From NCBI RefSeq assembly GCF_039525035.1, contig NZ_BAAAHE010000011.1:124270-172873 (forward strand): a DNA stretch of 48,604 bases, given 5' to 3'. Within the stretch, counting starts at the first letter, position 1. Each line of letters begins with the position of its first letter. This document shows positions 4,139-46,437 of the stretch, piece after piece. The DNA comes from Sporichthya brevicatena (lineage in GTDB: Bacteria; Actinomycetota; Actinomycetes; Sporichthyales; Sporichthyaceae). The notes beneath the pieces are model-generated. The model made no database searches. It saw nothing but the letters and a program-made list of their open reading frames with translations, and was not told the DNA's origin. Position numbers and translations under genes: made by a program.

Positions 4139-4165
4139 GGCGACCGCTACCTTTCCGCGGGGTCC

Positions 4166-4429: not shown

Positions 4430-4438
4430 CCCGCCTCC

Positions 4439-5272: not shown

Positions 5273-5275
5273 CAG

Positions 5276-6883: not shown

Positions 6884-6974
6884 GGCTCGGCCTTTCTCGT
6901 GGCCAGTACAGGGGCTGAGGAGGGGCAGTGATCTGAGAGGGCATCAGTCGCGTGACGCACGTCCGCAGGACGGG

Positions 6975-7946: not shown

Positions 7947-8008
7947 TGTCGAAACCAGCTTCCGTGGGTCGTGGGCGGCAAGTCCCGCGCTGGCGGGGGA
8001 GGCAGGGT

Positions 8009-22751: not shown

Positions 22752-23962
22752 GACCGGCCCCCCGACAGACCCAGGTAGCGCTTCGCGATCAGGTCGAGCT
22801 GGATCTCCGTCGTGCCGGCGAAGATGGTCTCGCCTCGGCTGTAGAGGAAGATCCGCTGCAACGCCTCCTCGACCGTGCCTTCGGGGTGCGCGCTCAGGGC
22901 CCGGCTGCCGAGGGCGTCCATGGCCAGATCCCCCAGCCGCTCGTGCCAACGACTCGAGTACGCCTTCGTGATCGCCGTGAGGGCGCCGGGGCCTTCGCCC
23001 GCCCTCGCCAGGTCCAGGGTCGTCAGACCGACGGCACGGAACGCGAGGAGTTCGGAGAACAGGGCGGCGAGCCGCGCGGGCCGGCCCGATTCGGCCCCGG
23101 CCGGCGCGCTGCGCACGACCTCTCGCACCAGTTCGAAATCCCGCTCGAAGCGCGGATAGCGGGACAGGAACCAGTCCCGCTCGTGGCCCAGTGTCGACAT
23201 TGCCACGCGCCAGCCCTCGTCGACCGGACCGACCACGTTGTGCTCGTCGGTGACCGCGCCGTCGAAGAAGACCTCGGCGAACTCGGCCGTCCCGGTCAGC
23301 TGCCGGATCGGGCGAACGGTGATCCCCGGTTGCCGCATGGGGATGAGCAGGTAGGACAGACCCTGGTGTCGCTGCGAGCCGGGCTGCGTGCGGCAGAGGG
23401 CGAAGCACCAGTCGGCCTTCTCGGCCAGGCTCGTCCACGTCTTCTGACCGTCGATCTGCCAGCGCCCTCCCACCAGCCGTGCGCGGGTGGAGATGTTGGC
23501 CAGGTCCGAGCCGGCCTCCGGCTCGGAGTAGCCCTGGCACCAGAACTCCGTCCTCGCACGGATGCCCGGCAGGAATCGCTCGCACTGCGCTGCGGTCCCG
23601 AAACGCATCATGGTCGGCGCGAGGAGGTCTTCCGCGACGAACCCGACACGATCGGGTACGCCCGCTCGATAACACTCCTCCCGGAACGCGAACAGCTCGT
23701 TGATCGTCGCGCCCCGACCGCCGTACGCCGGAGGCCAGTCGATGCACGACCATCCGGCCTGGGCGACCGCTTGCTCCCAACGGACGCTGAGGTCCCAGGA
23801 ATCGAGGTCGGTCGGCCCGCCGCGTCCGCGAAGCGCCTCGAACTCGCCGACGAAGGCGCCTTCGATCCACTCGCGGGCCGCTTGCCGGATGTCGGTGACC
23901 GACTCGTCCTCGTCCGACGCCAGCACCTCGCCGGCGAGGCCGGACCGCCCTCGCCGGCTCAC
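22748..23962 (-). CDS. Acyl-CoA dehydrogenase, long-type subunit
   Basis: A 404-residue acyl-CoA dehydrogenase. The flavin-binding segment is WCQGYSEPEAGSDLANI, followed by GQKTWTSLAEKADW and the C-terminal IFAGTTEIQLDLIAKRYLG. This architecture (WCQGxSEPxAGSD, GTxEIQ) marks the larger subunit in steroid-type alpha2-beta2 dehydrogenases. The GTG at 23962 overlaps the upstream short-type dehydrogenase stop (GTGA). It can pair with the short subunit at 19271-20335 or with that at 23959-24894. The desaturated substrate is unknown. Confidence 0.9.
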   Translation of the reverse strand: MSRRGRSGLAGEVLASDEDESVTDIRQAAREWIEGAFVGEFEALRGRGGPTDLDSWDLSVRWEQAVAQAGWSCIDWPPAYGGRGATINELFAFREECYRAGVPDRVGFVAEDLLAPTMMRFGTAAQCERFLPGIRARTEFWCQGYSEPEAGSDLANISTRARLVGGRWQIDGQKTWTSLAEKADWCFALCRTQPGSQRHQGLSYLLIPMRQPGITVRPIRQLTGTAEFAEVFFDGAVTDEHNVVGPVDEGWRVAMSTLGHERDWFLSRYPRFERDFELVREVVRSAPAGAESGRPARLAALFSELLAFRAVGLTTLDLARAGEGPGALTAITKAYSSRWHERLGDLAMDALGSRALSAHPEGTVEEALQRIFLYSRGETIFAGTTEIQLDLIAKRYLGLSGGRS

Positions 23963-24894
23963 GCCTCGACCCGGGCGGGGGCGAAGAGTCCGTCGAAGCC
24001 GTGGACCTCGATGGACTCGCCCAGCCAGTCGACCGTCTCGGCGAGCGCCGTCGGGACGCGCCGGTGCAAGAGGGTGCATCGCGAGATCCAGGACAGGGGC
24101 GTCTCGTCGCAGAACCCGCCGGCCCCGTGCAATTGATGGGCAGCACGGAAGACGGTCTCCGAGCTCTCGATCATCCTCAGGCGGAGGCTGAGGACGTCAG
24201 GGAGCGCGGCCTGGGGGTCCGACGCCAGGCGGAACAAGGAGAACCGGGCGAGTTCGTCGAGTCCCGCAACGGCCACCTCCATGTCGGCCAACTTGAACTG
24301 CACGGCCTGGAAGTCCGCCAACCGGCGGCCGAACTGCACCCGGTCACGGCAGTGCGTGACGGAGGCGTCCGTGGCCGCCCGCATGGCGCCGAGCACCGTC
24401 CAGGACTGGAACAGCAGGTGGTACGGAATCGTCGAGGGGTCCGCCGTCACCTGGTCGCCCAGGACCAGATGACAGGCGAAGGGGCTCGACAGCGACGACG
24501 AGTCCGCCACCGCGTCCCGGACCAGCCGAGCGGTCCCGTCGGGCAGCAGCGCCGTCCATCCCCCCATGAGGTCGCCGTGATCCATCACCGGCGACCTCGG
24601 ATGGAGCACCGTCGCGCCGGCGCCGCCGGGCCCGCTCAGTGCCCCGGTTACCGGGTAGGGCAGGGCGGTGGCCCCGGCCGCCCGGCAGACCGCCGCCGCC
24701 ACCGCCAACTGCTCCAGGTCTTCGCGTGGGTCGACGTCAAAGACGCCGAGGGCGGACAGCATCGGCGCCACCAGGTGCTCACGCAACGTCGGGTCCTGCG
24801 CGCACCGCTCGGTCAGATTGCCACCCAGGCTCGTGATGGCATCGACCACCACGCGCTCGAACTCGACGGCGCTGCGGGGAAGTTTGGTGTCCAT
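23959..24894 (-). CDS. Acyl-CoA dehydrogenase, short-type subunit
   Basis: A 311-residue, shortened dehydrogenase-fold protein. N-terminal helices start at FERVVVDAITSLGG. The C-terminal domain contains RDRVQFGRRLADFQAVQFKLADMEVAVA and HQLHGAGGFCDETPLSWISR. The flavin segment WCQGFSEP found in long types is absent, consistent with a partner subunit that completes a shared FAD site. The ATG at 24894 overlaps the stop of the next dehydrogenase by one base (TGATG), so the two are tightly coupled and probably form one alpha2-beta2 enzyme. Confidence 0.82.
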   Translation of the reverse strand: MDTKLPRSAVEFERVVVDAITSLGGNLTERCAQDPTLREHLVAPMLSALGVFDVDPREDLEQLAVAAAVCRAAGATALPYPVTGALSGPGGAGATVLHPRSPVMDHGDLMGGWTALLPDGTARLVRDAVADSSSLSSPFACHLVLGDQVTADPSTIPYHLLFQSWTVLGAMRAATDASVTHCRDRVQFGRRLADFQAVQFKLADMEVAVAGLDELARFSLFRLASDPQAALPDVLSLRLRMIESSETVFRAAHQLHGAGGFCDETPLSWISRCTLLHRRVPTALAETVDWLGESIEVHGFDGLFAPARVEA

Positions 24895-26036
24895 CACTCG
24901 CCCAACAGTCCGCGGGAAAGCGTCCGCCGCTGCATCTCGATGGTGCCCGACGACACCGTTGCCGCCTGTGCGTAGCGCCAATGATCCTCGACCGATCGCT
25001 CGAACGAACCGACCGGCGCCAGTACCCCCGGACCGCACATCTCGCCGACCACTTCGCCGACCTCCTGATCGAGTTGGGTGACGGCGATGCGGTACGCCGC
25101 CGCGACCTCGGGTGACCGGTTGCCTCGTTCGATCTCGGACACGACCCGGTACGCCAACAACTGGGCCTCCCGCGTGTGCACGAGAGCGGCGACCCACCGC
25201 GACCGCAAGGACCCGGGAAGCGAGTCCCACTGCTCGCCGGTACGCCGGCGCGCCTCCCAGAGCAGGCGGTCGCACTTCGCGTACCGCGCGATGCCGAACC
25301 GCTCGTAGGCGAGGACGTCGAGCACGATCCGCCAGCCCTCATCGAGGGTGCCGAGCAAGTTCTCCGGCCCCACGACGACCTCGTCGAAGAACAGCTCGTT
25401 GAGATGACGGGGACCGACCAGAGACTTGAGGGGCCGCACCGAGACGCCGGGCGCGGACATCGGAACCAGGAACACCGAGATCCCGGAACGCTTGTTCCCG
25501 GGGTCCCGGGAGGTGCGCGCAAGCAGGAAGCACCACTCCGCGATGTCCGCGTAGGAGGTCCAGACCTTCTGGCCCTCGATGACCCACCCGCCGTCGCGAG
25601 CGCGGGCGTGCGTCCGCAGCGCGAACAGGTCTGAGCCTGCATCAGGTTCTGAGAAGCCCTGACACCAGATGACATCACCCTGCGCGATGCGAGGCAGGTG
25701 CTCCTTCTTCTGCTCCTTCGTGCCGTGAAGCATCAGCGCCGGGCCGACCCAGTTCACACCCATATACTGGGCGCCCCGCGGCTCGAAGTGCGCCCACATC
25801 TCCTCCCGGACGACGGTTTGCGCCCAGACCGAGGCGTCCTGACCGCCGTACTCCGCCGGCCAGGCCATGCAGAGCAACTGCTGACTAGCCATCACTTTAC
25901 AGAACTGCTGGGCCACCTGGTGGTCGGAAGCGCGCCCGGTGAAGGCGCCCGTGAAGTCCTCGGGAACGCAGTCCGAGATGACGCCGCGGATCCGCTCTCG
26001 CAACTGTCGTGCGTCCGAAGGGAACGTGAAGTCCAA
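24894..26036 (-). CDS. Acyl-CoA dehydrogenase, long-type subunit
   Basis: A 380-residue dehydrogenase. WCQGFSEPDAGSDLFAL and GQKVWTSYADIAEWC are the flavin-contact motifs, and VSSGTIEMQRRTLSRGLLG is the C-terminal signature. I place the start at TTG 26036 because AGGAG lies 5 nt before it and the protein then begins MDFTFPSDARQLRER, the usual family start. A GTG at 26051 is the alternative. It is coupled to the short-type gene downstream. It is the first gene of the leftward run, with an AT-rich palindrome immediately upstream, shared with the divergent SDR gene. Confidence 0.88.
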   Translation of the reverse strand: MDFTFPSDARQLRERIRGVISDCVPEDFTGAFTGRASDHQVAQQFCKVMASQQLLCMAWPAEYGGQDASVWAQTVVREEMWAHFEPRGAQYMGVNWVGPALMLHGTKEQKKEHLPRIAQGDVIWCQGFSEPDAGSDLFALRTHARARDGGWVIEGQKVWTSYADIAEWCFLLARTSRDPGNKRSGISVFLVPMSAPGVSVRPLKSLVGPRHLNELFFDEVVVGPENLLGTLDEGWRIVLDVLAYERFGIARYAKCDRLLWEARRRTGEQWDSLPGSLRSRWVAALVHTREAQLLAYRVVSEIERGNRSPEVAAAYRIAVTQLDQEVGEVVGEMCGPGVLAPVGSFERSVEDHWRYAQAATVSSGTIEMQRRTLSRGLLGE

Positions 26037-26054
26037 AGAATCTCCTACCACCCG

Positions 26055-26079
26055 CGCTAAATATGATGATATTTTAGCG
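26055..26079. promoter_or_regulatory. AT-rich palindrome in the divergent dehydrogenase/SDR promoter
   Basis: CGCTAAATAT at 26055-26064 faces ATATTTTAGCG at 26069-26079 around GATG, a near-perfect inverted repeat. The internal 16-mer ATATGATGATATTTTA (26061-26076) matches 14 of 16 bases of 31615-31630, the other main promoter of this region. It is a candidate operator for a shared repressor, possibly one of the two GntR-type proteins. Confidence 0.5.
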
Positions 26080-26113
26080 GAGCTGAAAACGGTCCACAAC
26101 CACGAGGAAGCCG

Positions 26114-26914
26114 ATGTTCGAGTTGGACGGCAAGGTCGCGGTCGTCACGGGCGGTGGCAAGGGAATCGGGCGCGGCATCGCCCGAGCGCTCGCCGACGCA
26201 GGGGCGACCGTTGTCATCGTCGGTCGCGACACCGTCGCTCTCCGCCGCACCGTCGAGGAGATCCACGACCGCGGCGGGGAAGCCCGTTACCTGCAGGCTG
26301 ATCTCCGGGATCTGTCGGCACCGGATCGGATCATCGAATCCGTGCTGACCTGGCACGGACGGCTGGACTGTTGGGTCAACAACGCCGGCAGTGCCATGCC
26401 CTCCGACGTCGGGCCACTGCTCAGCATCACCGAGGACCGGTGGGACCGCGTCGTCGACCTGAACCTGAAGAGCGCCTTCTTCGCGTCCCAGGCGGCGTGC
26501 CGCGCCATGCCCAAGGGCGGATCGATCATCAACATCAGTTCCCGCAGCGGTTCGCAACCCAATCCGAACACCGGCCAGTACGGGGCGTCCAAAGCGGCTC
26601 TGGAGAACCTCACGATGACCATGGCCGTCGAGTGGGGGCATCTCGGCATCCGCGTGAACGCAGTCGCCCCCGGCCTGGTCCTCACCGAACTCGACGAGAC
26701 GCCCGACGGCGTCATGTACTCGGCCGAGCGCCGTCAGCGACAGATCGAACTGATCCCGGCCGGCCGCCTCGGAGTTGTCGACGACATCGGCCCGCTGTGC
26801 GTGTACCTGGCCTCCGACGAGTCGGCGTGGGTGTCCGGAGCAATCATCCCGGTCAACGGTGGCAGCCGAGTCTCGGTCGGTTACCTGTCGTACCTGAAGA
26901 AGGTCCGGCACTGA
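26114..26914 (+). CDS. Short-chain dehydrogenase/reductase (SDR)
   Basis: A 266-residue classical SDR. The cofactor motif is TGGGKGIGRG (residues 13-22), NNAG follows, and the catalytic residues lie in SIINISSRSGS and QYGASKAA (Tyr-x3-Lys). The C-terminal VSGAIIPVNGG is the family substrate-loop end. It probably oxidises a hydroxyacyl-CoA or a ring hydroxyl with NAD(P)+. The gene is divergent from the dehydrogenase run and monocistronic; a strong hairpin begins 6 nt after its stop. Confidence 0.9.
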   Translation: MFELDGKVAVVTGGGKGIGRGIARALADAGATVVIVGRDTVALRRTVEEIHDRGGEARYLQADLRDLSAPDRIIESVLTWHGRLDCWVNNAGSAMPSDVGPLLSITEDRWDRVVDLNLKSAFFASQAACRAMPKGGSIINISSRSGSQPNPNTGQYGASKAALENLTMTMAVEWGHLGIRVNAVAPGLVLTELDETPDGVMYSAERRQRQIELIPAGRLGVVDDIGPLCVYLASDESAWVSGAIIPVNGGSRVSVGYLSYLKKVRH

Positions 26915-26919
26915 CGCCG

Positions 26920-26955
26920 GTGCTCGGCGTCGGCGGGAACGCCGACGCCGAGCAC
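26920..26955. terminator. Bidirectional terminator between SDR and dehydrogenase genes
   Basis: A perfect 16-bp stem (26920-26935 with 26940-26955) and a GGAA tetraloop fill the gap between two convergent genes (stops at 26914 and 26961). It can terminate transcription from both sides. Confidence 0.85.
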
Positions 26956-26960
26956 TCCGG

Positions 26961-27935
26961 TCAGAACGACGAGACGCGGGGCAGCGCCGGCACCGACGAC
27001 GCGAGCCGGCCCAGCTGCGGCTGCAGCTGATGGTGCGACCCCAGCACGACGTCGAGGGTCCCCGTGTAGCGGACGAAGTGGTGGAACGGAAACTCCCACG
27101 TCATCCCCGTGGCACCGAGGACCTGCTGGCAGGCGGCTGTCACCTCGGCCGCGCAGCGACCGGCGGCCAGCTTCGCCAAATCCGCTGACCACAGATCGGC
27201 CGTCCGCCACGCTGTGGCCGTGAGCGCTGCTGCGCCTTCGATCTCCACGTACGCGTTGGCCAGGCCGTGCTGGACGCACTGGTTCGCCCCGATCGCACGG
27301 CCGAACTGGTGCCGTGTGGTCACGTGCTGGACGGCGATGTCCAGCATCTCTCGAGCCGCCCCGACCATCATCTGCGCGACGGCAGTCCGGGCGTAGGCGA
27401 GGGCGTCGACCCATCGCGATCCGTCGGGGCCGGCGGCTGCGATGCCGGCCGCGTCGAGCTCTCCACGGACCGTCGTGAGGCCGACCTCGTCGGACCAGGC
27501 ATCCCGCGGCCGGCAGTCCAGCCGTCCGGACTCCACCGGCAGGAGAGCTCCCGCGGACGAGCACCCGAAGAGGGCAGGCAGGAACAGGAGGTGGTCTCCG
27601 ACCGTCCCGAACGCGACACCCGCGACCGTGAGGACGTCACCCTCGCGGGAAGCCGCGAACGAGTCGCCCGACGGCGACCACGCGTCGGGCCAGATCACCT
27701 TCGACGTCGCCGGCAGGTCCAGCACACGTCGAACCGCGTCGTCGACGGCCTCGAGACCCGTCCGGGCCCGCCCGAGCTCGTCGAACAACAGCTCAGCCGC
27801 CTCCGTCGGATCCTCGGCAACGACGTCGTCCCACCCGAGATCCTCCAGAGCCGCACCGATGTCTGATCGCGCCTCGGCAGTCCGTGTGAGTTCACGCAGC
27901 CGCTCTCGCAGGAAGAGGGTCGTCTCGGTGTCCAT
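26961..27935 (-). CDS. Acyl-CoA dehydrogenase, short-type subunit
   Basis: A 324-residue dehydrogenase-like protein. Conserved C-terminal motifs are VTTRHQFGRAIGANQCVQHGLANAYVE and LGATGMTWEFPFHHFVRY. The T-W-E resembles that of the short subunit at 19271-20335. The WCQGFSEP flavin segment is missing. The ATG at 27935 is the first sensible start. The gene lies 8 nt after the long-type dehydrogenase at 27944-29143, which is its likely partner. Confidence 0.83.
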   Translation of the reverse strand: MDTETTLFLRERLRELTRTAEARSDIGAALEDLGWDDVVAEDPTEAAELLFDELGRARTGLEAVDDAVRRVLDLPATSKVIWPDAWSPSGDSFAASREGDVLTVAGVAFGTVGDHLLFLPALFGCSSAGALLPVESGRLDCRPRDAWSDEVGLTTVRGELDAAGIAAAGPDGSRWVDALAYARTAVAQMMVGAAREMLDIAVQHVTTRHQFGRAIGANQCVQHGLANAYVEIEGAAALTATAWRTADLWSADLAKLAAGRCAAEVTAACQQVLGATGMTWEFPFHHFVRYTGTLDVVLGSHHQLQPQLGRLASSVPALPRVSSF

Positions 27936-27943
27936 CCGCAGTC

Positions 27944-29143
27944 CTACCGTGGGAGCCCGAGCAACTGCTGGGCAACGATTGATCGTTGAACCTCGGCGAC
28001 GCCGCCGAGGATGGTGGCCGCCCGCGCGAAGTACCACGCGGACCGCCAGTAGGCCGCCCACTCACCGGATCCCGTCTCCACGGCGGGATGGAGCAGCCGT
28101 CGTGCACCGTCGGTCACGCACTGTTCCGCGCGGGACAGCAGCAGCTTGTCGATCGATGCCTCAGGGCCGAGCCGCGCGCCGGCCGCCAGGCGGCTCAACG
28201 TGCTCGCGGTGCGGGCACGAAGGGTACTGACCGCCGCGTACATCTCACCCAGCACCGCCGCCTCCAGATCACCGGGGGGACCGGGCATCTGATGGCGGAC
28301 CAACTCGACCCGGTGGTGAAGAACGGCTTGGCGCATCCAGGCGTACATGCCGCGTTCGAACTGCAGCAGGTACATCGCCACCTCCCAGCCCTTGCCGACC
28401 TCGCCGATCAGCCGGTCCGCGGGCACCTCCACGTCGTCGAGGAAGACCTCGCACAGGTGGTTCGCACCGGCGGCACTACGGATGGGATTCACGGTGATGC
28501 CTGGGGTGTTCATGTCGACCAGCAACATGGTCAGGCCGCGATGCCGACTTTCGGGCGTCCCGGTCCTGACCAGCAGGACGCACTTCGTCGACATCTGGGC
28601 GTTGCTGGTCCAGAGCTTCTGGCCGTTGACGACCCATCCCCCGGGACGCTCGGTCGCCCGGCAGCGCAGCGATGCGAGATCACTCCCGGCCTCCGGTTCC
28701 GAGAAGCCCTGACACCACATCTCGGCACCGGTGATCAGACCCGGAAGGTAGCTCACGGCCAGGTCCGGCGCATAGCGGAGGAGCGTCGGTCCGAGGATCT
28801 CCACGGGGTAGCAGCGCTCGGGCAGCACATAGCCGGCCGCCGCCAACTCGTCGTACACGACGCCGCGCAGCACCAGGTTGCCGCCGAGCCCACCGATCGA
28901 CTCCGGCCAGCCGATCAGTGACCAGCCGGCCTCCGCCAGCAGGAGCAGGAGACCGACGTGGAGTTCGTCCGCCTCCTCGTACGACGCCGGTTCCGGCTCG
29001 CGGTAGGGAATCAGCCGATCCGCGTTCGCCGCGAGCCACTCCCGGAACCACTCCCGCAGCTCGTCGGTACCGACTTCGTTCAACTTCTCCGGCTCCTGCG
29101 CCGGGGTGGGGCGCGTTCTCGGCGGCACTTCACTCATGGTCAT
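27944..29143 (-). CDS. Acyl-CoA dehydrogenase, long-type subunit
   Basis: A 399-residue dehydrogenase with MWCQGFSEPEAGSDLASL, VNGQKLWTSNAQMSTKC and the C-terminal ILGGVAEVQRSIVAQQLLGL. The last motif departs from the usual GTxEIQ (here GGVAEVQ). The ATG at 29143 overlaps the upstream SDR stop (ATGA); a second ATG at 29137 is equally in frame. It forms, with the following short-type gene, the third long/short pair of the region. Confidence 0.88.
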   Translation of the reverse strand: MTMSEVPPRTRPTPAQEPEKLNEVGTDELREWFREWLAANADRLIPYREPEPASYEEADELHVGLLLLLAEAGWSLIGWPESIGGLGGNLVLRGVVYDELAAAGYVLPERCYPVEILGPTLLRYAPDLAVSYLPGLITGAEMWCQGFSEPEAGSDLASLRCRATERPGGWVVNGQKLWTSNAQMSTKCVLLVRTGTPESRHRGLTMLLVDMNTPGITVNPIRSAAGANHLCEVFLDDVEVPADRLIGEVGKGWEVAMYLLQFERGMYAWMRQAVLHHRVELVRHQMPGPPGDLEAAVLGEMYAAVSTLRARTASTLSRLAAGARLGPEASIDKLLLSRAEQCVTDGARRLLHPAVETGSGEWAAYWRSAWYFARAATILGGVAEVQRSIVAQQLLGLPR

Positions 29144-29913
29144 GACGCGGCGACGAGCCCGCCGTCGACGGCGATCAGCGTGCCGTTGACGAAGGATGCT
29201 GCGGGTGAGAGGAGGAAGCACGCCACGTTCGCCGGCTCCTGCGCCAGGGCGGGACGGTTCATCGGATTGCGCCGAATCTGCTCCTGGTAGCCAGGGAGGT
29301 TGATCCACGACTCCGTGCGCGGCGTCAGGGTGTAGGAAGGAGCGATGGTGTTGGCCCTCGGCCGACCCCCTTCGCGGACCGCCAGATGGCGCGAGTACGA
29401 GGCGATCGCGCCCTTGGCCACCGGATAGAAGGACTGGACCAACGAGCTCCCGCCCCACCAGGTGCCCACGATCGACGAGGTGAACACCACGCTCTCCGCG
29501 TCCTCCGGGCACACCGTGAGCCAGGACTCGGTCACGTTGATCATGGCCCCGATCGCCCGCGAGACGCTGTCGATGATCGGCGCGTCGGTCACGCTGGCCG
29601 GCCCCGCGTTGTTGAACAGGTAGCGACAAGGTCCCGCTTCGGCCGCCTGCCGCCAAGCTCCTTCCACCGCCGCGGTGTCCGCCACGTCCACGATCGCCAG
29701 GTGGGCACGACCGCCCGCCGCCGTGATCTCCTCGACGACGGACTCGCATCCGTCCTTGTCCACGTCCCAGGCCGCGACGTGCACACCCGCCCGGGCCGCC
29801 GTGACCGCCGCCGCTCGGCCGATGCCACTGGCGGCACCCGTGACGACCAGCACCGCGTCCCGGTCGAAGCCGAGACCGGACATGTCCGGTGCCCAGTTCT
29901 CAGGTCGAGTCAT
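29140..29913 (-). CDS. Short-chain dehydrogenase/reductase (SDR)
   Basis: A 257-residue SDR. TGAASGIGRA binds the dinucleotide, and FNNAGPAS is the NNAG motif. The catalytic Ser lies in VFTSSIVGTWWGG and the Tyr-x3-Lys in SFYPVAKGA. The aspartate in AAWDVDKDG after the second beta strand suggests NAD+ preference. The C-terminus FVNGTLIAVDGG is canonical. The ATG at 29913 shares a base with the ligase stop (TGATG). It is in the same leftward run as a ligase and a dehydrogenase pair, so a hydroxyacyl-CoA is a plausible substrate. Confidence 0.9.
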   Translation of the reverse strand: MTRPENWAPDMSGLGFDRDAVLVVTGAASGIGRAAAVTAARAGVHVAAWDVDKDGCESVVEEITAAGGRAHLAIVDVADTAAVEGAWRQAAEAGPCRYLFNNAGPASVTDAPIIDSVSRAIGAMINVTESWLTVCPEDAESVVFTSSIVGTWWGGSSLVQSFYPVAKGAIASYSRHLAVREGGRPRANTIAPSYTLTPRTESWINLPGYQEQIRRNPMNRPALAQEPANVACFLLSPAASFVNGTLIAVDGGLVAAS

Positions 29914-36831: not shown

Positions 36832-37262
36832 CCAGCACCTTGGACCAGTCGACCGACCGGGGGCCGCTCTGGCCGTTGCCGATCCCGGACCCGGACACCC
36901 GGGGGTTCTGGGCCGCCACCGCGCAGGGCGTGCTCGCCGTGTGTCGGTGCCTGGACTGCCGTCAATGGATTCACGCGCCGCTGGAGCGCTGCCGGACCTG
37001 CATGGGTCCGGTGGAGTTCGCCCCGGTGAGCGGTCGGGGCACCCTCCACACCTGGATCGCGGTGAACCGGCAGGCCGTGCCGGGACCCGACGTGCCCTAC
37101 CTGGTCGGCGTGGCCGAACTGGAGGAGGCGCCGTCGATCCGCATCACCGGGGTGCTGCGGACGGCGACCGACCTACGCCCGCAGGTCGGCATGCCCGTGA
37201 CGATCGGCCTGGAACCGACCGCGGCCGGCGACTTCGTCGCTCCGGTCATCCTGCCGGCTTGA
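36828..37262 (+). CDS. DUF35 OB-fold/zinc-ribbon protein, aldolase partner
   Basis: A 144-residue protein with a rubredoxin-like zinc ribbon (C41-x2-C44 and C55-x2-C58) followed by an OB fold (GRGTLHTWIAVNRQ, PYLVGVAELEE, VTIGLEP). DUF35 proteins bind thiolase-fold partners and help position acyl-CoA; in steroid degradation the DUF35 domain of ChsH2 forms the Ltp2 aldolase complex. The GTG at 36828 overlaps the aldolase stop by 4 nt (GTGA), which suits an obligate complex. Its end overlaps the convergent pentapeptide gene by 17 nt. Confidence 0.9.
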   Translation: MTSTLDQSTDRGPLWPLPIPDPDTRGFWAATAQGVLAVCRCLDCRQWIHAPLERCRTCMGPVEFAPVSGRGTLHTWIAVNRQAVPGPDVPYLVGVAELEEAPSIRITGVLRTATDLRPQVGMPVTIGLEPTAAGDFVAPVILPA

Positions 37263-38154
37263 CGTCGTCCGCCAGCATCGCCAGCAGAGGCAGCGCCCGG
37301 CGAGCGTTGCCGCACCCTGCCATCTCCTGATCCAGGGTCGACCCCACGTCGGCGCGTTCGCCCAGCAGCGCGGCGGCATCGACCCGACGGGGCAGGCGTT
37401 GCCGGCTCCACTCGTCCATCGCACTGGGCGCCAGGACGACGACGCGCTCCAACCCCCGCGCCTCGCCCAGATCCGACCGCAACACCACGACCCCACCGAA
37501 CCGGGCGTCGTCGAAGCGGGACCGCGCGAACGTGCACCCCCGAAAGACGACGCCCACCAGAAGGGCACCCCCGAGGTCCGCTGCGCCCAGGTCAGCGCCG
37601 TTGAAAGTGGCCTCGAGCAGATCAGCCCCCGTCAGATCGGCACCGACGAACCGGGCTCCCCACGCACTGACGTTGGACAGCCGAGCGTTCGCAGCCGTGA
37701 CGTGTGCGGCGTCGGCACCGTCCAGTACGGCACCGACCAGGGAGGCGCCGGTCAGATCCGCGCGCCGCAGGTCGGCGCCCGAAAGGTTGACCGTCCTCAG
37801 TTCCTGACGATCATTCAGAACCGATGCCCACCCCACGGAGGCCACGCGCAGCACCGCGTCGGTCAGGCTGGCCGACGCCAGGTCGGCCCCCTGCAGATTG
37901 CACCCACTCAGGTCGGCGTTGCTGAGGTCGGAGAAGGAGAGTTCCGCTCCTCGCAGGTCGGCGTCGCGGAACACCGCTCCGGACGCTGCGATGCCCTCCC
38001 CGTGCGCACAGGCGTTCCGGAGATCCGCCTTGGTCAGGTCAGCACCGGCCAGCAAGGCGCCACTGAGATCAGCGTCCCGCAGGTTCGCGCCCACCAGGTC
38101 GGCGCCGCGCAGATCCGCGCGCCGCAGATCAACCCCCCGCAGATCCGCGCTCAT
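37246..38154 (-). CDS. Pentapeptide-repeat protein
   Basis: A 302-residue protein. Residues 1-225 are dense A(D/N)Lxx pentapeptide repeats (for example ADLRGVDLRRADLRGADLVG), interrupted near residues 48-60 and 105-120. This predicts a right-handed quadrilateral beta helix. The last 75 residues (LERVVVLAPSAMDEWSRQRLP to the end) are not repetitive. There is no signal peptide. The ATG at 38154 overlaps the stop of the Rieske gene upstream (ATGA), so it is the last cistron of the oxygenase operon. Pentapeptide proteins can mimic DNA or act as protein scaffolds; here a scaffold or resistance role is only a guess. Confidence 0.9.
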   Translation of the reverse strand: MSADLRGVDLRRADLRGADLVGANLRDADLSGALLAGADLTKADLRNACAHGEGIAASGAVFRDADLRGAELSFSDLSNADLSGCNLQGADLASASLTDAVLRVASVGWASVLNDRQELRTVNLSGADLRRADLTGASLVGAVLDGADAAHVTAANARLSNVSAWGARFVGADLTGADLLEATFNGADLGAADLGGALLVGVVFRGCTFARSRFDDARFGGVVVLRSDLGEARGLERVVVLAPSAMDEWSRQRLPRRVDAAALLGERADVGSTLDQEMAGCGNARRALPLLAMLADDVKPAG

Positions 38155-39041
38155 GCCGTCGTGGAGACCCGATCGCCGGACTCCCCGATCGGCGAGGACT
38201 CCAGGTCCGCACGCCAGGCCCGGAATGACCGCAGCGGCTCCTCCCCCGACCCGCCAGGCAGGGGTTGGTAGGCCATGTCCGCGACCAGGCCGAGGATTCG
38301 ATCCATCGCGCGGTCCGACGCACGCGCATCACCGGTGATCGCCGTCAGGATCCGCACCGTGTCGTCGACCACCGGGAGGATGGCGACCGTGAGTGACCAA
38401 CCCGGCCCGACGACGACACCGGTGGCCACGTCGAGGACAGCCGTCCGGACCGCCGCACCGTCGTCGCGTCGGTACTCGACCTCGAAGCGGGTGTCCGAGC
38501 TGGTCGGAACCCCGGCGAGATCGATCTCGCCGCCGGCGAGGAATCTCAACAGCGCCGGATCGACCAGCGCTTCGAGGATCAGCCGCGGGTCGGCGACGAG
38601 CTCGCGCGTGACCCAGGCCCGAGTCGCGTCGTTCGGAAGGTCCGGCGCCGGCCGCTGCGGTTGCGGCTGGTCGGCCGAACCGGAGTACCACAGGAAGACC
38701 AGCCCACCCTGCTCCGCGACGGTCCAGGGACGGATCCGCCGGCCGCGGTGCGTACGGCTGTCGTAGGGGATGTCGGTGTTCTCGCCGGCCGGCGACCACG
38801 CCCACCCGTGGTAGAAGCACCGCACGTCCTCACCACAGACGCGCCCGTTGTAGCCGAGGTGCGCTCCGAGGTGCTGACAGAAGGCGTCCAACGCATGCAG
38901 CTCACCGGACTCACCACGCCACAGGACCAGTTCCTTGCCCTGGACGCGGAGGGGAATCACTCCACCGACGGGCAACTCGGACAGCACGGAGACCGGCAAC
39001 CACCCGCGCAGTACCGCGCCTCCACTCGCCACCGTGGTCAT
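38151..39041 (-). CDS. Rieske oxygenase-like protein A: intact [2Fe-2S] site, degenerate catalytic iron site
   Basis: A 296-residue homologue of KshA/VanA-type Rieske oxygenases. The Rieske domain is complete: C55-x-H57 and C75-x2-H78 (FCQHLGAHLG, RCFYHGW). In the catalytic domain the segment that should read E-N-x2-D-x2-H-x4-H reads EALVDPALLRFLA. D161 is kept, but the two iron-binding His align with L164 and A169. The C-terminal ligand region (D-x2-I-W in the third homologue) is not recognisable. It should carry a redox cluster but no mononuclear iron. The ATG at 39041 overlaps the next Rieske-like gene (ATGA). It may donate electrons across a subunit interface to protein C (45436-46437); alternatively it has become a ferredoxin-like carrier. 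Confidence 0.87.
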   Translation of the reverse strand: MTTVASGGAVLRGWLPVSVLSELPVGGVIPLRVQGKELVLWRGESGELHALDAFCQHLGAHLGYNGRVCGEDVRCFYHGWAWSPAGENTDIPYDSRTHRGRRIRPWTVAEQGGLVFLWYSGSADQPQPQRPAPDLPNDATRAWVTRELVADPRLILEALVDPALLRFLAGGEIDLAGVPTSSDTRFEVEYRRDDGAAVRTAVLDVATGVVVGPGWSLTVAILPVVDDTVRILTAITGDARASDRAMDRILGLVADMAYQPLPGGSGEEPLRSFRAWRADLESSPIGESGDRVSTTA

Positions 39042-39928
39042 GCGCGCCCGATCCAGGTACGAACGACAGCGAGACCCGATCGCCGGGCCGGAACGACCCG
39101 CTCCTGGTCCCGGCGAACGGCCGCGACCACCTCCGCGAGCCGCCCCGCCATCCCGGCCCAGTCGGCACCACCACCCCAGGCACAGGTCCGGAGCTCCAGC
39201 GACTCGTCGGCTCCGGTCGGAGTCGTCCCGATCAAGGCCCCGCCGCTGTTGTGGCCGGTCGCCGAGACCGACATCAGCAGCGTGCCGAACGCGCGGACGT
39301 CAACGGTGCACTCCGGTCGTCGATCAACCGCGAACTGAAGGTGCAGAACGTCGTCGGTCGCCACCGGCACGCGAGGTTCTCCGGTCACCCCGACCCCGAG
39401 GACGTAACTCAAGGTGCAGGGGTCCGCGAGGGACTCGAGCACCGCCAGCGGATGGCTGGCCACGGCCCGCGTGGTCGGCCGGGAGATCCATGCTTCGGGC
39501 GACGGGAGGCGCGGAACGTCCGGAGGCACCCGTTCCCCGCCGCACACGAGCACAAGTCCGTGCACCTCCGTGACAGCGTGGTGGCGGAGAACCAGCCCTG
39601 GTTCGGATCGGTGGACGACACCGCTCGGCTCCGTGGCCGAGCCGTCGAACGACCACAACCAGCCGTCGACCGAGGACCGGATGCCGGTCGGCTCCACCGA
39701 GCCGTCCGTCAGGGGGTACCCCCGTCGGGGGCACCGGCGGTCGGCCGCGCGGACATGCCCGTCGGCGTCGCGATACAGCAGCAGATCCATCCCCTCCACC
39801 CGCGTCGGGACGAGGGCTCCCGCGACGACGTCGTCCGACCAGGCCGCCGCGATCCAGTTGCTTGCCGAGCGCCTCACCGGGACCTCCGCCTGGGGAGTCA
39901 CCGGGTCGACGGGAGCCGGCGCACCCAT
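39038..39928 (-). CDS. Rieske oxygenase-like protein B: both metal sites degenerate
   Basis: A 296-residue homologue of the two other Rieske-type proteins of the window. In the Rieske domain only C66 of the four ligands remains: His is R68 (CPRRGYPLTDG), the second Cys is S85 and the second His is D88 (IRSSVDGWLW). In the catalytic domain the iron motif reads ESLADPCTLSYVL. The bridging Asp (D169) is kept, but the His positions are T172 and L177. It should bind neither a [2Fe-2S] cluster nor iron. The fold-defining residues around the lost ligands (RGYPLTDGS, DGWLWSFDG) are conserved, so the reading frame is under selection as a structural subunit. The ATG at 39928 shares a base with the aldehyde dehydrogenase stop (TGATG); an ATG at 39937 is also in frame. 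Confidence 0.85.
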   Translation of the reverse strand: MGAPAPVDPVTPQAEVPVRRSASNWIAAAWSDDVVAGALVPTRVEGMDLLLYRDADGHVRAADRRCPRRGYPLTDGSVEPTGIRSSVDGWLWSFDGSATEPSGVVHRSEPGLVLRHHAVTEVHGLVLVCGGERVPPDVPRLPSPEAWISRPTTRAVASHPLAVLESLADPCTLSYVLGVGVTGEPRVPVATDDVLHLQFAVDRRPECTVDVRAFGTLLMSVSATGHNSGGALIGTTPTGADESLELRTCAWGGGADWAGMAGRLAEVVAAVRRDQERVVPARRSGLAVVRTWIGRA

Positions 39929-41433
39929 CACGGCCATTCGGAACCGACCAATCCGTACGGCCGGCAGTCGAGGTCGTTCTCGTCCAGGCTCGTGTAGACG
40001 TGCTTCATCTGGGTGTACTCGAGCATCCCTTCCGGACCCCACTCGCGGCCGAATCCGCTCTGCTTGTAACCCCCGTAGGGCGCCGGCGCCAGAACTCCGT
40101 ACGTGTTGATCCACACCGTCCCGGCCTGGATCCGGCGCGCCACGGCGCGGGCCGCGAGCGTCGAACCCCAGACGACCGCTCCGAGTCCGTACCTCGTGTT
40201 GTTGGCCAGGGCGACACCCTCCTCGACGGTGTCGTAGGGCAGCACGACAAGCACCGGACCGAAGACCTCCTCCTGGGCGATCTCCATGTCGGGCGTCACG
40301 TCGGTGAGCACCGTCGGTTCGAAGAACCACCCGTCCGCTCCGTCGACGACGGCGCGCCGGCCCCCGGTGAGGACCTTCGCGCCCTCGCTCACCGCTCGCT
40401 CCACCATCGCCTCCACGCGGAGGCACTGCTGCTCGGAGATCAGCGGGCCGACGTCGGTCGCGAAGTCCTCGGCGGGGCCGAGCTTCAGCGCCTCCGTGCG
40501 CTTGCGGACCAGGTCTACTGCTACGTCGTAGAGACCGGAGGGCACCAGGAGCCGGGTGGTCGCGACGCAGGCCTGCCCGGCGTGCATGAACGCGGCGAAC
40601 AACGTGCCACGGACGGCCAGTTCCAGGTCGCCGTCCGGCAGCACCAGACTCGGGGACTTGCCCCCGAGCTCCAACGTCAGCCGCTTGACGGTGGGCGCCG
40701 CCGCCGCCATGACACGCGATCCGACCTCCGTGCTGCCCGTGAAGCTGATGTGGTCGACACCCGGATGCGCGACCAGCGCCTTGCCCGCCTCCTGGTCCCC
40801 GTGCACCAGGTTGACGACCCCGGCCGGCACGCCCGCTGCCTCGCAGGCACGGACGAACTCGACGCTGGCGAGCGGCGTCAGCGGCGAAGACTTGATGACC
40901 ACCGTGTTCCCCATCAGGATCGGCGGAACGACCTTCCAGATGGTCATCAGCAGGGGGAAGTTGAAGGGGACGAAGCCGGCGCAGACGCCGACCGGCTCGC
41001 GCAGCACGTCACTCTGACCGACGGCCGGAGCAGTCACGATCGGTCCGGACTTGACCTCCTCCAGCAGGCCCGCCCACTCCGCCATGTCACGGACCATCCC
41101 GATGGGGGTACCGGTCTGCATGAGGCCGGACAACCGCGCCGGGCAGCCGGCCTCGCGCGGGATCAGCTCGTCGAGCACCGGCAGGCGGGCCTCCAACTCG
41201 GCCGCGAGTCGCAGCACGACGTCGCCTCGGGCGGCCGCACTCAGACGGGGCCAGGGGCCTTCGTCGAACGCTCGGCGAGCCGCTGCCACGGCCGCCGCGA
41301 CGGTCTCGACATCGCTGTCGGGAACCTCGGCGATCGGCGTCAGGTGGGACGGATCGACAACGGGAATCCAGTCTCCGCTGCCACCGTCCACCCATTCGCC
41401 GTCGATGTAGTTCAAGGCGCGGGTCGAGCTCAT
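39928..41433 (-). CDS. NAD(P)+-dependent aldehyde dehydrogenase
   Basis: A 501-residue aldehyde dehydrogenase with C289 as nucleophile (HAGQACVATTRLLV) and E255 as base (LELGGKSPS). VPFNFP is the cofactor motif (PF instead of the usual PW), and FTGSTEVG and GGYKQSGFGREWG are intact. The GQACV context is that of general aldehyde and betaine-type enzymes. The ATG at 41433 overlaps the SCP2-like gene by 4 nt. Within this operon it probably oxidises an aldehyde produced by side-chain cleavage or by hydroxylation at a terminal carbon. Confidence 0.92.
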   Translation of the reverse strand: MSSTRALNYIDGEWVDGGSGDWIPVVDPSHLTPIAEVPDSDVETVAAAVAAARRAFDEGPWPRLSAAARGDVVLRLAAELEARLPVLDELIPREAGCPARLSGLMQTGTPIGMVRDMAEWAGLLEEVKSGPIVTAPAVGQSDVLREPVGVCAGFVPFNFPLLMTIWKVVPPILMGNTVVIKSSPLTPLASVEFVRACEAAGVPAGVVNLVHGDQEAGKALVAHPGVDHISFTGSTEVGSRVMAAAAPTVKRLTLELGGKSPSLVLPDGDLELAVRGTLFAAFMHAGQACVATTRLLVPSGLYDVAVDLVRKRTEALKLGPAEDFATDVGPLISEQQCLRVEAMVERAVSEGAKVLTGGRRAVVDGADGWFFEPTVLTDVTPDMEIAQEEVFGPVLVVLPYDTVEEGVALANNTRYGLGAVVWGSTLAARAVARRIQAGTVWINTYGVLAPAPYGGYKQSGFGREWGPEGMLEYTQMKHVYTSLDENDLDCRPYGLVGSEWP

Positions 41434-41860: not shown

Positions 41861-43099
41861 TCAGACCGTTTCCAGGAGAAGTTCCGTGTGACCACGGACC
41901 GCCGACAGATGACGGACGGGCGTGGTGCCGGGCTGAATTCGGTAATTGGGCATCAGCCGATGCCACTCGCGCAGAGCGATCCGGAGTTCTAGGCGCGCGA
42001 CGTGGGAGCCCAGGCAGCGATGTGCTCCAGCCCCGAAAGCGATGTGACGGTTGGGATTCCGGGAGAAGTCGATTGAGCCCGCGTTCGGGAACTGGTCCTC
42101 GTCGCGACACGCGGAACTCATCATCAGCAGGACTCGGTCGCCCTCGCTCATGTCGACCCCGCGGATTGTCACGTCACGCGTCAACCGGCGACCCGGAAGC
42201 ACCGGGGCAAACCAGCGGAGTAGCTCCTCGACGGCGGAATCGATCCGTTCCGGGTGCTCGACGATCTCCCGCCGGTAGTCCTCGTGGGTGGCCAGGAACT
42301 CCATACTCATGCTCAGGACGCCTTGAACCGTGTCGAGGCCGGCGATGAGCACGATGAAGATGCAGTCGAGAATCTCGAACGTGCTCAGAGGCCGTTCGTC
42401 ACCGAACGAGGCGCTGCGAAGCCAGTCGATGAAATCGCGGCCCTCAGAGGTGTTGGGCGGACCCAGCTCCTCCCTGCGGTCCAGCTCCTCGGCGAAGTAC
42501 GAGACGAGTTCGAGAGCCGTCGCCTCCTTGATGCGCGCCGACTCCTCCGGATCGTCGGAAGGCTGACGCATCAGCTTCTCGGTCCACTCAAGGAACCGGG
42601 GCGCGTCCTCGAGCGGCCATCCCATCATGTCCAGGAACACCCGCGTGGGGAGCACCTGCGCGAAATCCTTGACGTAGTCGCAGGAGCCCTTCGCAGCAAT
42701 CTCGGCGACGAGCGCTTCGGCATGTTCCTGAATCTTGGCCTCCAGGGGACGCACCCGCCTGACCGTGAAAAGCGGGGCGAGAATCTCCCGGTACTTCGCG
42801 TGGTCCGGAGGGTCGATCTCGACCGGAATCACCGGGCGAGCGCTGCCGATTCCGTTGGCCGGGATCGGGTTCGGGTACGACGAGAACAGCTCCGGCTCCT
42901 GATAGGCACGGAAGACGTCGTCGTACTTCGACAGCATCCAGAAGCCGCCGTAACGTTCACTCTTCGCGACCGGGCAGCGCTCGCGCATCCGGTCGAAGAG
43001 GGCGTCCGCACCGCCCTGGACGTCCTCGTTCCAGTAGTGGAACTGAGAGATCTCGGGATCGTCGGACCCGACGTTCATTTCGGCGACACTTTCAGTCAT
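41861..43099 (-). CDS. Cytochrome P450 monooxygenase
   Basis: A 412-residue bacterial class I P450. The heme signature FGAGAHRCLG contains the axial Cys C362. The E-x2-R pair is E292/R295, and the I-helix reads IAGLDTV (residues 252-258; the second Thr of the usual DTT is Val). All core elements are present and the length is normal. The ATG at 43099 overlaps the ferredoxin stop by 8 nt. It is expected to hydroxylate a C-H bond of the pathway substrate with electrons from the adjacent ferredoxin. Family number cannot be assigned by eye; CYP125- or CYP142-like identity is not evident. Confidence 0.93.
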   Translation of the reverse strand: MTESVAEMNVGSDDPEISQFHYWNEDVQGGADALFDRMRERCPVAKSERYGGFWMLSKYDDVFRAYQEPELFSSYPNPIPANGIGSARPVIPVEIDPPDHAKYREILAPLFTVRRVRPLEAKIQEHAEALVAEIAAKGSCDYVKDFAQVLPTRVFLDMMGWPLEDAPRFLEWTEKLMRQPSDDPEESARIKEATALELVSYFAEELDRREELGPPNTSEGRDFIDWLRSASFGDERPLSTFEILDCIFIVLIAGLDTVQGVLSMSMEFLATHEDYRREIVEHPERIDSAVEELLRWFAPVLPGRRLTRDVTIRGVDMSEGDRVLLMMSSACRDEDQFPNAGSIDFSRNPNRHIAFGAGAHRCLGSHVARLELRIALREWHRLMPNYRIQPGTTPVRHLSAVRGHTELLLETV

Positions 43100-43286
43100 C
43101 CGACACCTCCACGGTGATCGCGCGTTCAGGACAGTTCTGCTCCGCCTCTCGGGCCGCGGCGAGATCGTTCCCGGAACCCGGCCGGACGACGGCCATACCC
43201 GCGTCGTCGTGCTCGAAAATCTCGGGTGCATGGGACAAGCACAGGCCGTGTCCACTGCACCGCCGAGCGTCAATGACGACCTTCAT
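43092..43286 (-). CDS. [3Fe-4S] ferredoxin, P450 redox partner
   Basis: A 64-residue single-cluster ferredoxin. Cys ligands are in RRCSGHGLCLSHAP (C-x5-C) and EQNCPERAI (C-P). The position of the fourth ligand is His (SGHGLC), the pattern of P450-associated [3Fe-4S] ferredoxins in actinomycetes. It is translationally coupled to the P450 gene and surely serves it. The ferredoxin reductase is not in the window. Confidence 0.93.
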   Translation of the reverse strand: MKVVIDARRCSGHGLCLSHAPEIFEHDDAGMAVVRPGSGNDLAAAREAEQNCPERAITVEVSDD

Positions 43287-44135: not shown

Positions 44136-45299
44136 CTACGCCGTGGCGACCGGGTCGGCGAACCCGAGCGACCGGCCCACGATCTCTTTCATGACCTCAT
44201 TGGTCCCGCCATAGATCCGCGAGACCCGCGAATCCCGCCAGATGCGCGCGATCTCGTACTCGTTCACGTAGCCGTAGCCGCCGTGCATCTGCAGACAGCG
44301 GTCGACGATCTCCCACTGGGTTTCCGTCGCCCACCACTTCGCGCCGGCCGCCTCCTCGGCGGTCAGGTCGCCGGCGTTGACAGCGAGGATGCAACGGTCG
44401 AGATAGGCACGCAGGACGTCGAGCTTGATCCGGATCTCCGCCAGGGCATGCCGGTTGGCCTGGAACGTACCGACCGGCCGCCCGAACGCCTCGCGATCGC
44501 CGGCGTACTGCGTCGTGAGCGCGAACGCCCGCTCCGCCGCCCCCGCGGCCTGCAGCGCGATACCGAGACGTTCGCGGGGCAGGTTGGCCATCAGGTGGTA
44601 GAAGCCCCGATCCTCGGTCCCGATCAGGTTCTCCACCGGCACGCGGACGTCGACGAAGGAGAGCTCGGCCGTGTCCTGGGAGTGCTGGCCGATCTTGTCC
44701 AGCTGTCGGCCACGAGTGAAGCCCTCGGTACCGCTTTCCACGACGATCAGGCTGAGGCCTCGGTGGCCGTCCATCTCGGACGTGCGGCAGACCACCAGCA
44801 CGAGGTCCGCCAGCAGACCGTTGCTGATGAACGTCTTCGACCCGTTGATGACGTAGTGGTCGCCGTCGCGACGGGCTGAGGTCCGTACCGCGCGGACGTC
44901 CGAGCCGGCACCCGGTTCGGAGATGGCGATCGCGCCGATCAGCTCGCCGGCGACGAATCCCGGCAGCCATCGTGCTTTCTGCTCCGGGGTCGTCAGGTCG
45001 AGCAGGTACGGCAGGAGGATCTCGTTCTGCAGGCCCAGCCCGATGCCCACCGTGCCCGTGGCCCAGAACTCCTCGATCAGGACCGCGTTGAAGCGGAAGT
45101 CGACCAGGCCGAGCCCGCCGTACTCCTCTGGAGCCTCCCAGGCGAGCAGCCCCTGCTTCCCCGCGGCCCGCCAGGCCTCGCGGCTGACCTGCCCCGCACG
45201 CTCCCACTCGTCGACGTACGGCACACAGTCCCGCTCGAAGAACTCCCGGCAGGTGGCGCGGAAGTCATCGTGCGAAGGATCGAAAATTCCGCGCTGCAT
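44136..45299 (-). CDS. Acyl-CoA dehydrogenase, stand-alone type
   Basis: A 387-residue dehydrogenase of ordinary homotetrameric type: GAIAISEPGAGSDVRAV, NGSKTFISNG, REAFGRPVGTFQANRHALAEIRI, LQMHGGYGYVNEYEIARIWRD and RIYGGTNEVMKEIVGR. Unlike the paired dehydrogenases, it carries both complete halves and lacks WCQGFSEP. LPRERLGIALQAAG is the segment that in long-chain and isovaleryl-type enzymes holds the catalytic base. The ATG at 45299 is preferred over an open upstream frame without ribosome site. It is divergent from the Rieske-like gene at 45436. Confidence 0.93.
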   Translation of the reverse strand: MQRGIFDPSHDDFRATCREFFERDCVPYVDEWERAGQVSREAWRAAGKQGLLAWEAPEEYGGLGLVDFRFNAVLIEEFWATGTVGIGLGLQNEILLPYLLDLTTPEQKARWLPGFVAGELIGAIAISEPGAGSDVRAVRTSARRDGDHYVINGSKTFISNGLLADLVLVVCRTSEMDGHRGLSLIVVESGTEGFTRGRQLDKIGQHSQDTAELSFVDVRVPVENLIGTEDRGFYHLMANLPRERLGIALQAAGAAERAFALTTQYAGDREAFGRPVGTFQANRHALAEIRIKLDVLRAYLDRCILAVNAGDLTAEEAAGAKWWATETQWEIVDRCLQMHGGYGYVNEYEIARIWRDSRVSRIYGGTNEVMKEIVGRSLGFADPVATA

Positions 45300-45315
45300 G
45301 ATGTGGACCCTCGAA

Positions 45316-45427
45316 CTAGTAGTAAGAGTTAACTGATTAGACCGTAGATGGCGCGGGCAGCTTGTGTCCAGCGGCCTTGCTCGCTCGCTCCCCACGCACA
45401 TATAGTAAAATAAATCGACTCTTAAGG
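45316..45427. promoter_or_regulatory. AT-rich divergent promoter region with candidate operators
   Basis: Between the dehydrogenase (leftward, from 45299) and Rieske-like protein C (rightward, from 45436) there are two AT-rich blocks: 45316-45342, containing the palindrome AGTTAACT at 45327-45334, and 45401-45427, containing TAGTAAAATAAATCG. TAAGAGT on one strand near 45324-45329 has an inverted counterpart ACTCTTA at 45419-45425. This could be a pair of sites for one regulator. Confidence 0.4.
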
Positions 45428-45435
45428 ACGCCCCG

Positions 45436-46437
45436 ATGCGCCATCGAGCTATCGCCGGCTGGAACCGTCGGACCTTCCCGACGGGCTGGTTCCAAGTCGC
45501 CTGGTCACCCGAGCTGGAACCGGGACAACTCGCAGCACGCCGGTACTGGGGTCGAGACCTCGTCGTCTGGCGGTCAGAGTCGGGCGCGGTGCACCTCATG
45601 GAGGCCCACGAGGGGCGTCGGGGCCTCGACCTGACCCGCTGGGGCCAGGTCGAAGGGGAGTCGATCCGGTGCATCCTCGACGGCTGGCAGTGGCAGCCGG
45701 ACGGGACCGCGCGCGACGACACCGGCGCCGCCGTCGACGTGGGAGCGCTACGTTCGTTCCCCGCCGTCGAGATCTCCGGCCTGGTCCTCGCCTGGTACGA
45801 CGAGAACGGCGATCCGCCATCCTGGTCGGTGGAGGGCGGCGAAGAGGCGACCTCCCCCGACTACTACCCCGCCTGGCCCCACGGGGCCGTTTTGGACCTG
45901 ATGTCGTGTCAGCCCCAGGTGATGGCGGAAAACATTGCCGACGTCGTGCACGTCCGCTACGCACACCGCTGGCTCGACATCCCGACGATCACCGAGTGGG
46001 ACGACTCGTCGCCACGACTCGAGGTCGGGTACGAGGGAAACTTCCCCTCCCCGCGCGGGCCGGTTCACGCGGTGTTCCACAACACCGCGTGGGGCTTCGG
46101 CGTCATGCGTACGAGCATGACGAGCATCCGGAAGTTCGTGCACTACATCTGCCCCACTCCGATCGACCACACGATGATGGACGTCCGGTTGAGCGCCTGG
46201 GTCGAACGCGCGCCCGACGACACCGGCGACCGTCCGGACTCGATCGCTGCGGCCCTGATCCGAGCGCAGCGAGACGAGGTTCTCGGACCAAATGTGGATC
46301 GCAGCATCTGGGAGAACCAGGCCTACATGGAACAGCCGGCCTTTCGGAGCCAGGAGCGGCAGTACGTCCAGTTTCGGCGCTGGTGCGCTCAGTTCTATCC
46401 GCACGAGCCGCGGCCCCAGCGGGCGGCCTCCCGCTAA
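45436..46437 (+). CDS. Rieske oxygenase-like protein C: intact catalytic iron site, degenerate Rieske site
   Basis: A 333-residue KshA-like oxygenase. The catalytic domain keeps ENIADVVHVRYAH (165-177): bridging D169, iron ligands H172 and H177 with the spacing of naphthalene dioxygenase (D205, H208, H213), and a probable third ligand D288 in VDRSIWEN. The end RQYVQFRRWCAQFY matches KshA-type C-termini. The Rieske domain aligns without gaps to protein A but has lost three ligands: the first Cys is E59, the first His R61 and the second His D82. Only C79 remains (AHEGRRG, RCILDGW). It should bind catalytic iron but no [2Fe-2S] cluster, so it needs an external Rieske donor; protein A is the obvious candidate. 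The ATG has AAGGA 8 nt upstream. Confidence 0.88.
   Translation: MRHRAIAGWNRRTFPTGWFQVAWSPELEPGQLAARRYWGRDLVVWRSESGAVHLMEAHEGRRGLDLTRWGQVEGESIRCILDGWQWQPDGTARDDTGAAVDVGALRSFPAVEISGLVLAWYDENGDPPSWSVEGGEEATSPDYYPAWPHGAVLDLMSCQPQVMAENIADVVHVRYAHRWLDIPTITEWDDSSPRLEVGYEGNFPSPRGPVHAVFHNTAWGFGVMRTSMTSIRKFVHYICPTPIDHTMMDVRLSAWVERAPDDTGDRPDSIAAALIRAQRDEVLGPNVDRSIWENQAYMEQPAFRSQERQYVQFRRWCAQFYPHEPRPQRAASR

Follow-up and report, generated by a model that had tools for sequence, protein, structure and literature searches.

The window considered here is a stretch of 48,604 nucleotides from the soil actinobacterium Sporichthya brevicatena (contig NZ_BAAAHE010000011.1, positions 124,270 to 172,873 of the forward strand), and it encodes three related oxygenase copies that resemble KshA, the oxygenase component of 3-ketosteroid 9alpha-hydroxylase. 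The copies are distinguished by the metal sites that they retain: alpha1 has only the site for the mononuclear iron, alpha2 has only the site for the Rieske cluster, and alpha3 has neither. Judged by their ligand residues, alpha2 and alpha1 would together constitute a split Rieske oxygenase, in which one paralogue holds the Rieske ligands only and the other the iron ligands only. All three frames are open and have a normal codon-position composition. The features of alpha1, in window coordinates, are as follows.

45436 to 46437, plus strand: alpha1 (P0001), a KshA-like oxygenase with an intact mononuclear-iron site and without a Rieske cluster site
45424 to 45428, plus strand: AAGGA ribosome-binding site, 7 bases 5' of the alpha1 ATG, read from the sequence
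45604 to 45645, plus strand: first former cluster-binding loop, alpha1 residues 57-70 (Cys to E59, His to R61, A64L, H65D, G67T, G69W)
45664 to 45693, plus strand: second former cluster-binding loop, alpha1 residues 77-86 (C79 kept, P80I, F81L, His to D82)
45928 to 45966, plus strand: iron motif E165-N-I-A-D169-V-V-H172-V-R-Y-A-H177, which includes the bridging Asp169
46297 to 46299, plus strand: third iron ligand, Asp288

The alpha1 frame is open over 333 codons, with GC contents of 0.68, 0.51 and 0.85 at the three codon positions, and, given the base composition, a frame of this length would be open by chance with a probability of about 0.0008. The protein matches the Pfam families KshA_C (PF19298; E 1.6e-20, 74.5 bits against a cut-off of 23.3) and Rieske (E 4.6e-07). 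KshA proteins (PDB 2zyl, 4qck, 4qdc) are its nearest solved structures, and alpha1 shares with them the whole-chain fold, the iron triad, the bridging Asp and KshA_C. However, identity is about 20%, and KshA is a homotrimer with both centres in every chain, whereas here the centres are found on different chains. In the columns that provide the Rieske ligands of KshA (Cys, His, Cys, His), alpha1 has E59, R61, C79 and D82; three of the four are lost, one cysteine is left, and the C-x-H...C-x2-H set that KshA-type enzymes carry in the same chain is absent. The 2-His-1-carboxylate iron site, H172, H177 and D288, is complete, as is the bridging D169. The sequence-only reading of this locus had proposed, from a gapless alignment with a protein A (alpha2 here), that C55, H57 and H78 became E59, R61 and D82 in alpha1, and that its catalytic motif and D288 were textbook. 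All of this holds: the alignment is gapless across the cluster loops, the motif E165-N166..D169..H172....H177 and D288 are intact, and only the retention of C79 had gone unstated. Neither a frameshift nor a sequencing artefact accounts for the Rieske stretch, the other frames encoding no ligand motif.

The predicted structures of alpha1 and alpha2 both display the two-domain Rieske oxygenase fold. That of alpha1 is confident throughout, with a predicted local distance difference test score (pLDDT) of 93.6, mostly 95-98 in the Rieske blocks, and it matches KshA with a Z of 32.9 and a root-mean-square deviation of 2.5 over 310 residues; because the model is guided by intact homologues, this agreement reflects compatibility with the fold rather than stability. 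The alpha2 prediction is fair (pLDDT 81.7, KshA Z 26.6). The alpha2 and alpha3 genes lie side by side.

38151 to 39041, minus strand: alpha2 (P0002), Rieske ligands C55, H57, C75 and H78 intact, iron ligands lost and catalytic domain shortened
39038 to 39937, minus strand: alpha3 (P0003), Rieske site degenerate (C, R, S, D), iron ligands lost; start at 39937 or 39928
39038 to 39041, minus strand: ATGA overlap of 4 bases between the alpha3 stop and the alpha2 start, indicating translational coupling, with alpha3 directly upstream of alpha2

The region of the iron motif reads EALVDPALLRFLAGG in alpha2; the iron triad is missing from both this protein and alpha3, and no match to Pfam KshA_C is detected in either. 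All three window proteins score highest with the NCBIfam model of the 4beta-methylsterol monooxygenase SdmA (NF052579), yet their scores of 37.7-42 bits are far under the cut-off of 600, so none of them is a member of that family. The end of alpha2 shares an ATGA with the gene of a 302-residue pentapeptide-repeat protein (37246-38154, minus strand). This protein, an unusual partner for a catabolic operon, thus seems to be coupled in translation to the oxygenase subunits.

The best homologue of alpha1 is found in a metagenome-assembled genome (MAG) of Sporichthya sp., MGR_bin378 (G004/L026/L058). It is 39% identical, has both centres intact and is the sister of alpha1 in the tree (support 100/91). 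Among the columns that are conserved in at least 85% of homologues, 35 fall within the Rieske domain and 20 within the catalytic domain. Of these, the sister protein keeps 30 and 18, respectively, alpha1 keeps 21 and 19, alpha2 keeps 26 and 8, and alpha3 keeps 14 and 8. The losses of alpha1 and alpha2 thus fall in opposite domains (Fisher p about 0.004), and those of alpha1 are concentrated in the two cluster-binding loops and residues 92-97. Evolutionary rates were taken as fixed-topology amino-acid branch lengths for each domain, relative to the sister alpha1 and with 24 loop residues handled separately; the ratio of nonsynonymous to synonymous substitution rates was set aside because, with the nearest homologue only 39% identical, the synonymous rate is saturated. 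The alpha1 branch is 25 times that of its sister in the loops, a value that is the program's upper bound, 1.64 times in the Rieske domain without the loops, and 1.77 times in the catalytic domain. The alpha2 branch mirrors this pattern, with 2.50 in the catalytic domain against 0.72 in the Rieske domain.

These rates bear directly on decay as an explanation, in which duplicated KshA-like oxygenase genes have left three relics, seen before stops accumulate, and the loss of different sites is accidental. All three branches are long, neither site survives in alpha3, the KshA_C model no longer matches alpha2 or alpha3, and the state is known from one genome only, as decay would have it. The runaway change in alpha1, however, is confined to the cluster-binding loops and the rest of its Rieske domain keeps pace with the catalytic domain, which argues against decay, since general decay would not spare the remaining Rieske domain. 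Moreover, 19 of the 20 catalytic columns are kept, the replacement of Cys by Glu takes several base changes, the losses are complementary, and three frames have stayed open with normal codon-position composition despite the low random chance of even the 333 codons of alpha1. We consider decay unlikely.

In the KshA trimer the subunits pack head to tail, such that the cluster and the iron of different subunits lie about 12 angstrom apart and are linked by an Asp (PMC6153880), whereas the distance between cluster and iron within one chain of a Rieske oxygenase is about 45 angstrom (PMC12445004). With this packing, a chain can do with a single working centre, provided that the adjacent subunit contributes the missing one. 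The bridging carboxylate is indispensable in CntA (PMC7948474). Because the cluster of one KshA-type subunit feeds the iron of its neighbour, the reading that we prefer, and hold to be reasonably probable, is that alpha1 supplies the catalytic iron in an obligate heteromeric Rieske oxygenase of the KshA type, the two metal centres of which are divided between paralogues. Besides this mechanism, the complementary losses, the branch lengths, the predicted folds of alpha1 and alpha2, the two-gene locus of MGR_bin378 and the intact single-copy relatives in related catabolic clusters speak for it. The candidate donor is alpha2, as it has lost exactly what alpha1 keeps. It would take electrons from a reductase onto its [2Fe-2S] cluster, from which they would cross the alpha2/alpha1 interface via Asp169 of alpha1 to the alpha1 iron held by H172, H177 and D288; this iron would then activate O2 for the hydroxylation of a lipid-like substrate. 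The reductase and the substrate are both putative. More tentatively, alpha3, having neither centre, may complete the trimer by filling the third position as a structural filler, which would give a 1:1:1 enzyme with one electron route and one active site, although this stoichiometry is less certain than the pairing of alpha1 with alpha2. That the three paralogues work only as such an alpha1-alpha2-alpha3 heterotrimer, evolved stepwise from a homotrimer via an alpha1-alpha2 stage that persists in a related Sporichthya, is possible but rather doubtful. The sequence-only reading had suggested an active site fed by the cluster of another protein, and not decay. This is partly borne out: the second part agrees with the rates and the first is the best-supported reading, with the same protein A as candidate donor, while contact and electron transfer between the two are proposed.

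Several points weigh against a divided enzyme. The alpha1 gene lies outside the alpha2/alpha3 operon, being about 6.4 kb away on the opposite strand. The three-way state, and E59, R61 and D82 with it, occurs in one genome only. The branches of alpha1, alpha2 and alpha3 are all long, which relaxed constraint would fit too, and those of alpha2 and alpha3 have no settled position in the tree. Lastly, the assembly of the chains is a proposal made from sequence.

Precedents for such a division are already known, in the form of Rieske-less iron subunits such as NdmC and the two-chain chlorophyllide a oxygenase (CAO). In the split CAO, the two motifs are reportedly carried by separate chains, that for the Rieske cluster by one and that for the iron by the second (described by Kunugi in 2013). 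This two-chain Rieske oxygenase is found in Micromonas and Ostreococcus (PMC9615114); unlike the proteins considered here, it is eukaryotic, acts in chlorophyll biosynthesis, belongs to an unrelated subfamily and has no third chain lacking both centres. In the N7-demethylase NdmCDE, the iron-bearing NdmC has no Rieske cluster of its own, the Rieske domain having moved to the reductase (PMC4408171). The likeness to what is proposed for alpha1 is that the iron subunit draws on a cluster borne by a different protein; the difference is that alpha1 keeps the Rieske domain fold, free of ligands, and that its candidate donor is a paralogous oxygenase subunit. The steroid acyl-CoA dehydrogenases ChsE1/2 and ChsE4/5 are paralogous heteromers with catalytic residues in one subunit only, and steroid catabolism routinely employs heteromers in which one partner is silent (PMC8399759); the ChsE pairs resemble the present case as heteromers of lipid catabolism, but their family is unrelated to the Rieske oxygenases. 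The open-access literature yielded no description of a KshA-type oxygenase from bacteria that is split between paralogous subunits.

The example of NdmC, which functions without its own Rieske cluster (PMC4408171), also lends itself to the explanation that alpha1 is a working iron oxygenase with a donor other than alpha2, be it a ferredoxin, some further Rieske oxygenase encoded in the genome, a cluster carried by a reductase as in NdmCDE, or peroxide. The complete iron site and missing cluster of alpha1 would be accounted for, and the same genome also encodes the intact KshA-like proteins L002 and L003. Yet no NdmD-like or ferredoxin gene is seen beside alpha1, alpha2 offers the complementary defect in the same island, the sister genome has the alpha2 orthologue and alpha1 as coupled genes, and alpha1 retains the bridging Asp169 that the Rieske histidine of a neighbour uses; this explanation is accordingly improbable. 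At least three proteins of the genome have FAD_binding_6, a domain expected of reductases, and none is tied to the alpha1/alpha2/alpha3 cluster. That alpha1 is a silent homotrimer, or a regulatory or substrate-binding protein with merely structural iron ligands, is very unlikely, for although pseudo-enzymes occur in many families there is no direct evidence of one here, and alpha1 keeps the full ligands, the bridging Asp and the surrounding columns (19/20), which the paralogues without catalytic iron lost fast.

Among relatives in other genomes, MGR_bin378 has an alpha2-like gene directly upstream of its alpha1, with a GTGA overlap that indicates translational coupling; the encoded protein has intact Rieske ligands, and H177 is replaced by Ser. 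No alpha3 was found in MGR_bin378, and among other genomes none was found in 396. More distant single-copy, intact relatives are found in MAGs of Hydrocarboniphaga (L059), whose cluster shares an acyl-CoA dehydrogenase (52%), a P450, an aldehyde dehydrogenase and a thiolase with the window, and of Pseudonocardia (L060), which shares the acyl-CoA dehydrogenase (51.5%); profile search gave no second KshA-like gene in L059, L060 or L061. A progression from homomer to alpha1 with alpha2, and then to all three, is plausible, its order being based on few genomes. Outside this genome, every one of the 132 distinct homologues checked keeps both centre motifs. No orthologue with E59, R61 and D82 occurs in the 296 class-level genomes searched with alpha1, in the loci of a phylum-level search, or among the 80 best loci when about 85,000 species genomes were scanned with two peptide patterns, a scan that can overlook diverged alpha2 and alpha3 types. 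No relative was found in viral contigs. An IS630-like transposase gene (L026, 8208-9323, plus strand) lies directly beside the MGR_bin378 pair, and a KshA-like gene of Williamsia (L069, 9902-10981, plus strand) is split into two frames by an in-frame stop, apparently a pseudogene or a sequencing error.

The subunits sit in a catabolic island of acyl-CoA dehydrogenases, CoA ligases, enoyl-CoA hydratases, aldehyde dehydrogenases, a P450, an SCP2-like protein and a mycofactocin-type short-chain dehydrogenase/reductase. This gene content suggests a lipid-like substrate, for example a sterol or terpenoid. Three genes of this context are the following.

44136 to 45308, minus strand: acyl-CoA dehydrogenase, divergent from alpha1; relatives lie near the alpha1 relative in G004, L059 and L060 (48-52% identity)
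39928 to 41427, minus strand: aldehyde dehydrogenase, overlapping the alpha3 start; cluster context
41861 to 43117, minus strand: cytochrome P450; cluster context

Several paralogous acyl-CoA dehydrogenases stand in a row (19271-29899, minus strand), and in one of them (19271-20473) no middle domain is detectable, which recalls the heteromeric ChsE-type pairs with a silent partner. Separately from the oxygenase cluster, one stretch reads as an apparent NiFe hydrogenase gene set (2016-8917), at the end of which is a Rieske-motif protein (2016-3245, minus strand; CAHLG...CPWH).

The prevailing view of Rieske oxygenases has electrons passing solely from one subunit to its neighbour. If the heteromeric reading is true, a natural enzyme with cluster and iron on different genes would test this inter-subunit transfer directly, without mutagenesis, and each centre could be tuned or removed separately. 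The window, the two-gene relative and the single-copy relatives look like successive stages from a symmetric homomer to an obligate heteromer, the same route as that of the steroid acyl-CoA dehydrogenases.
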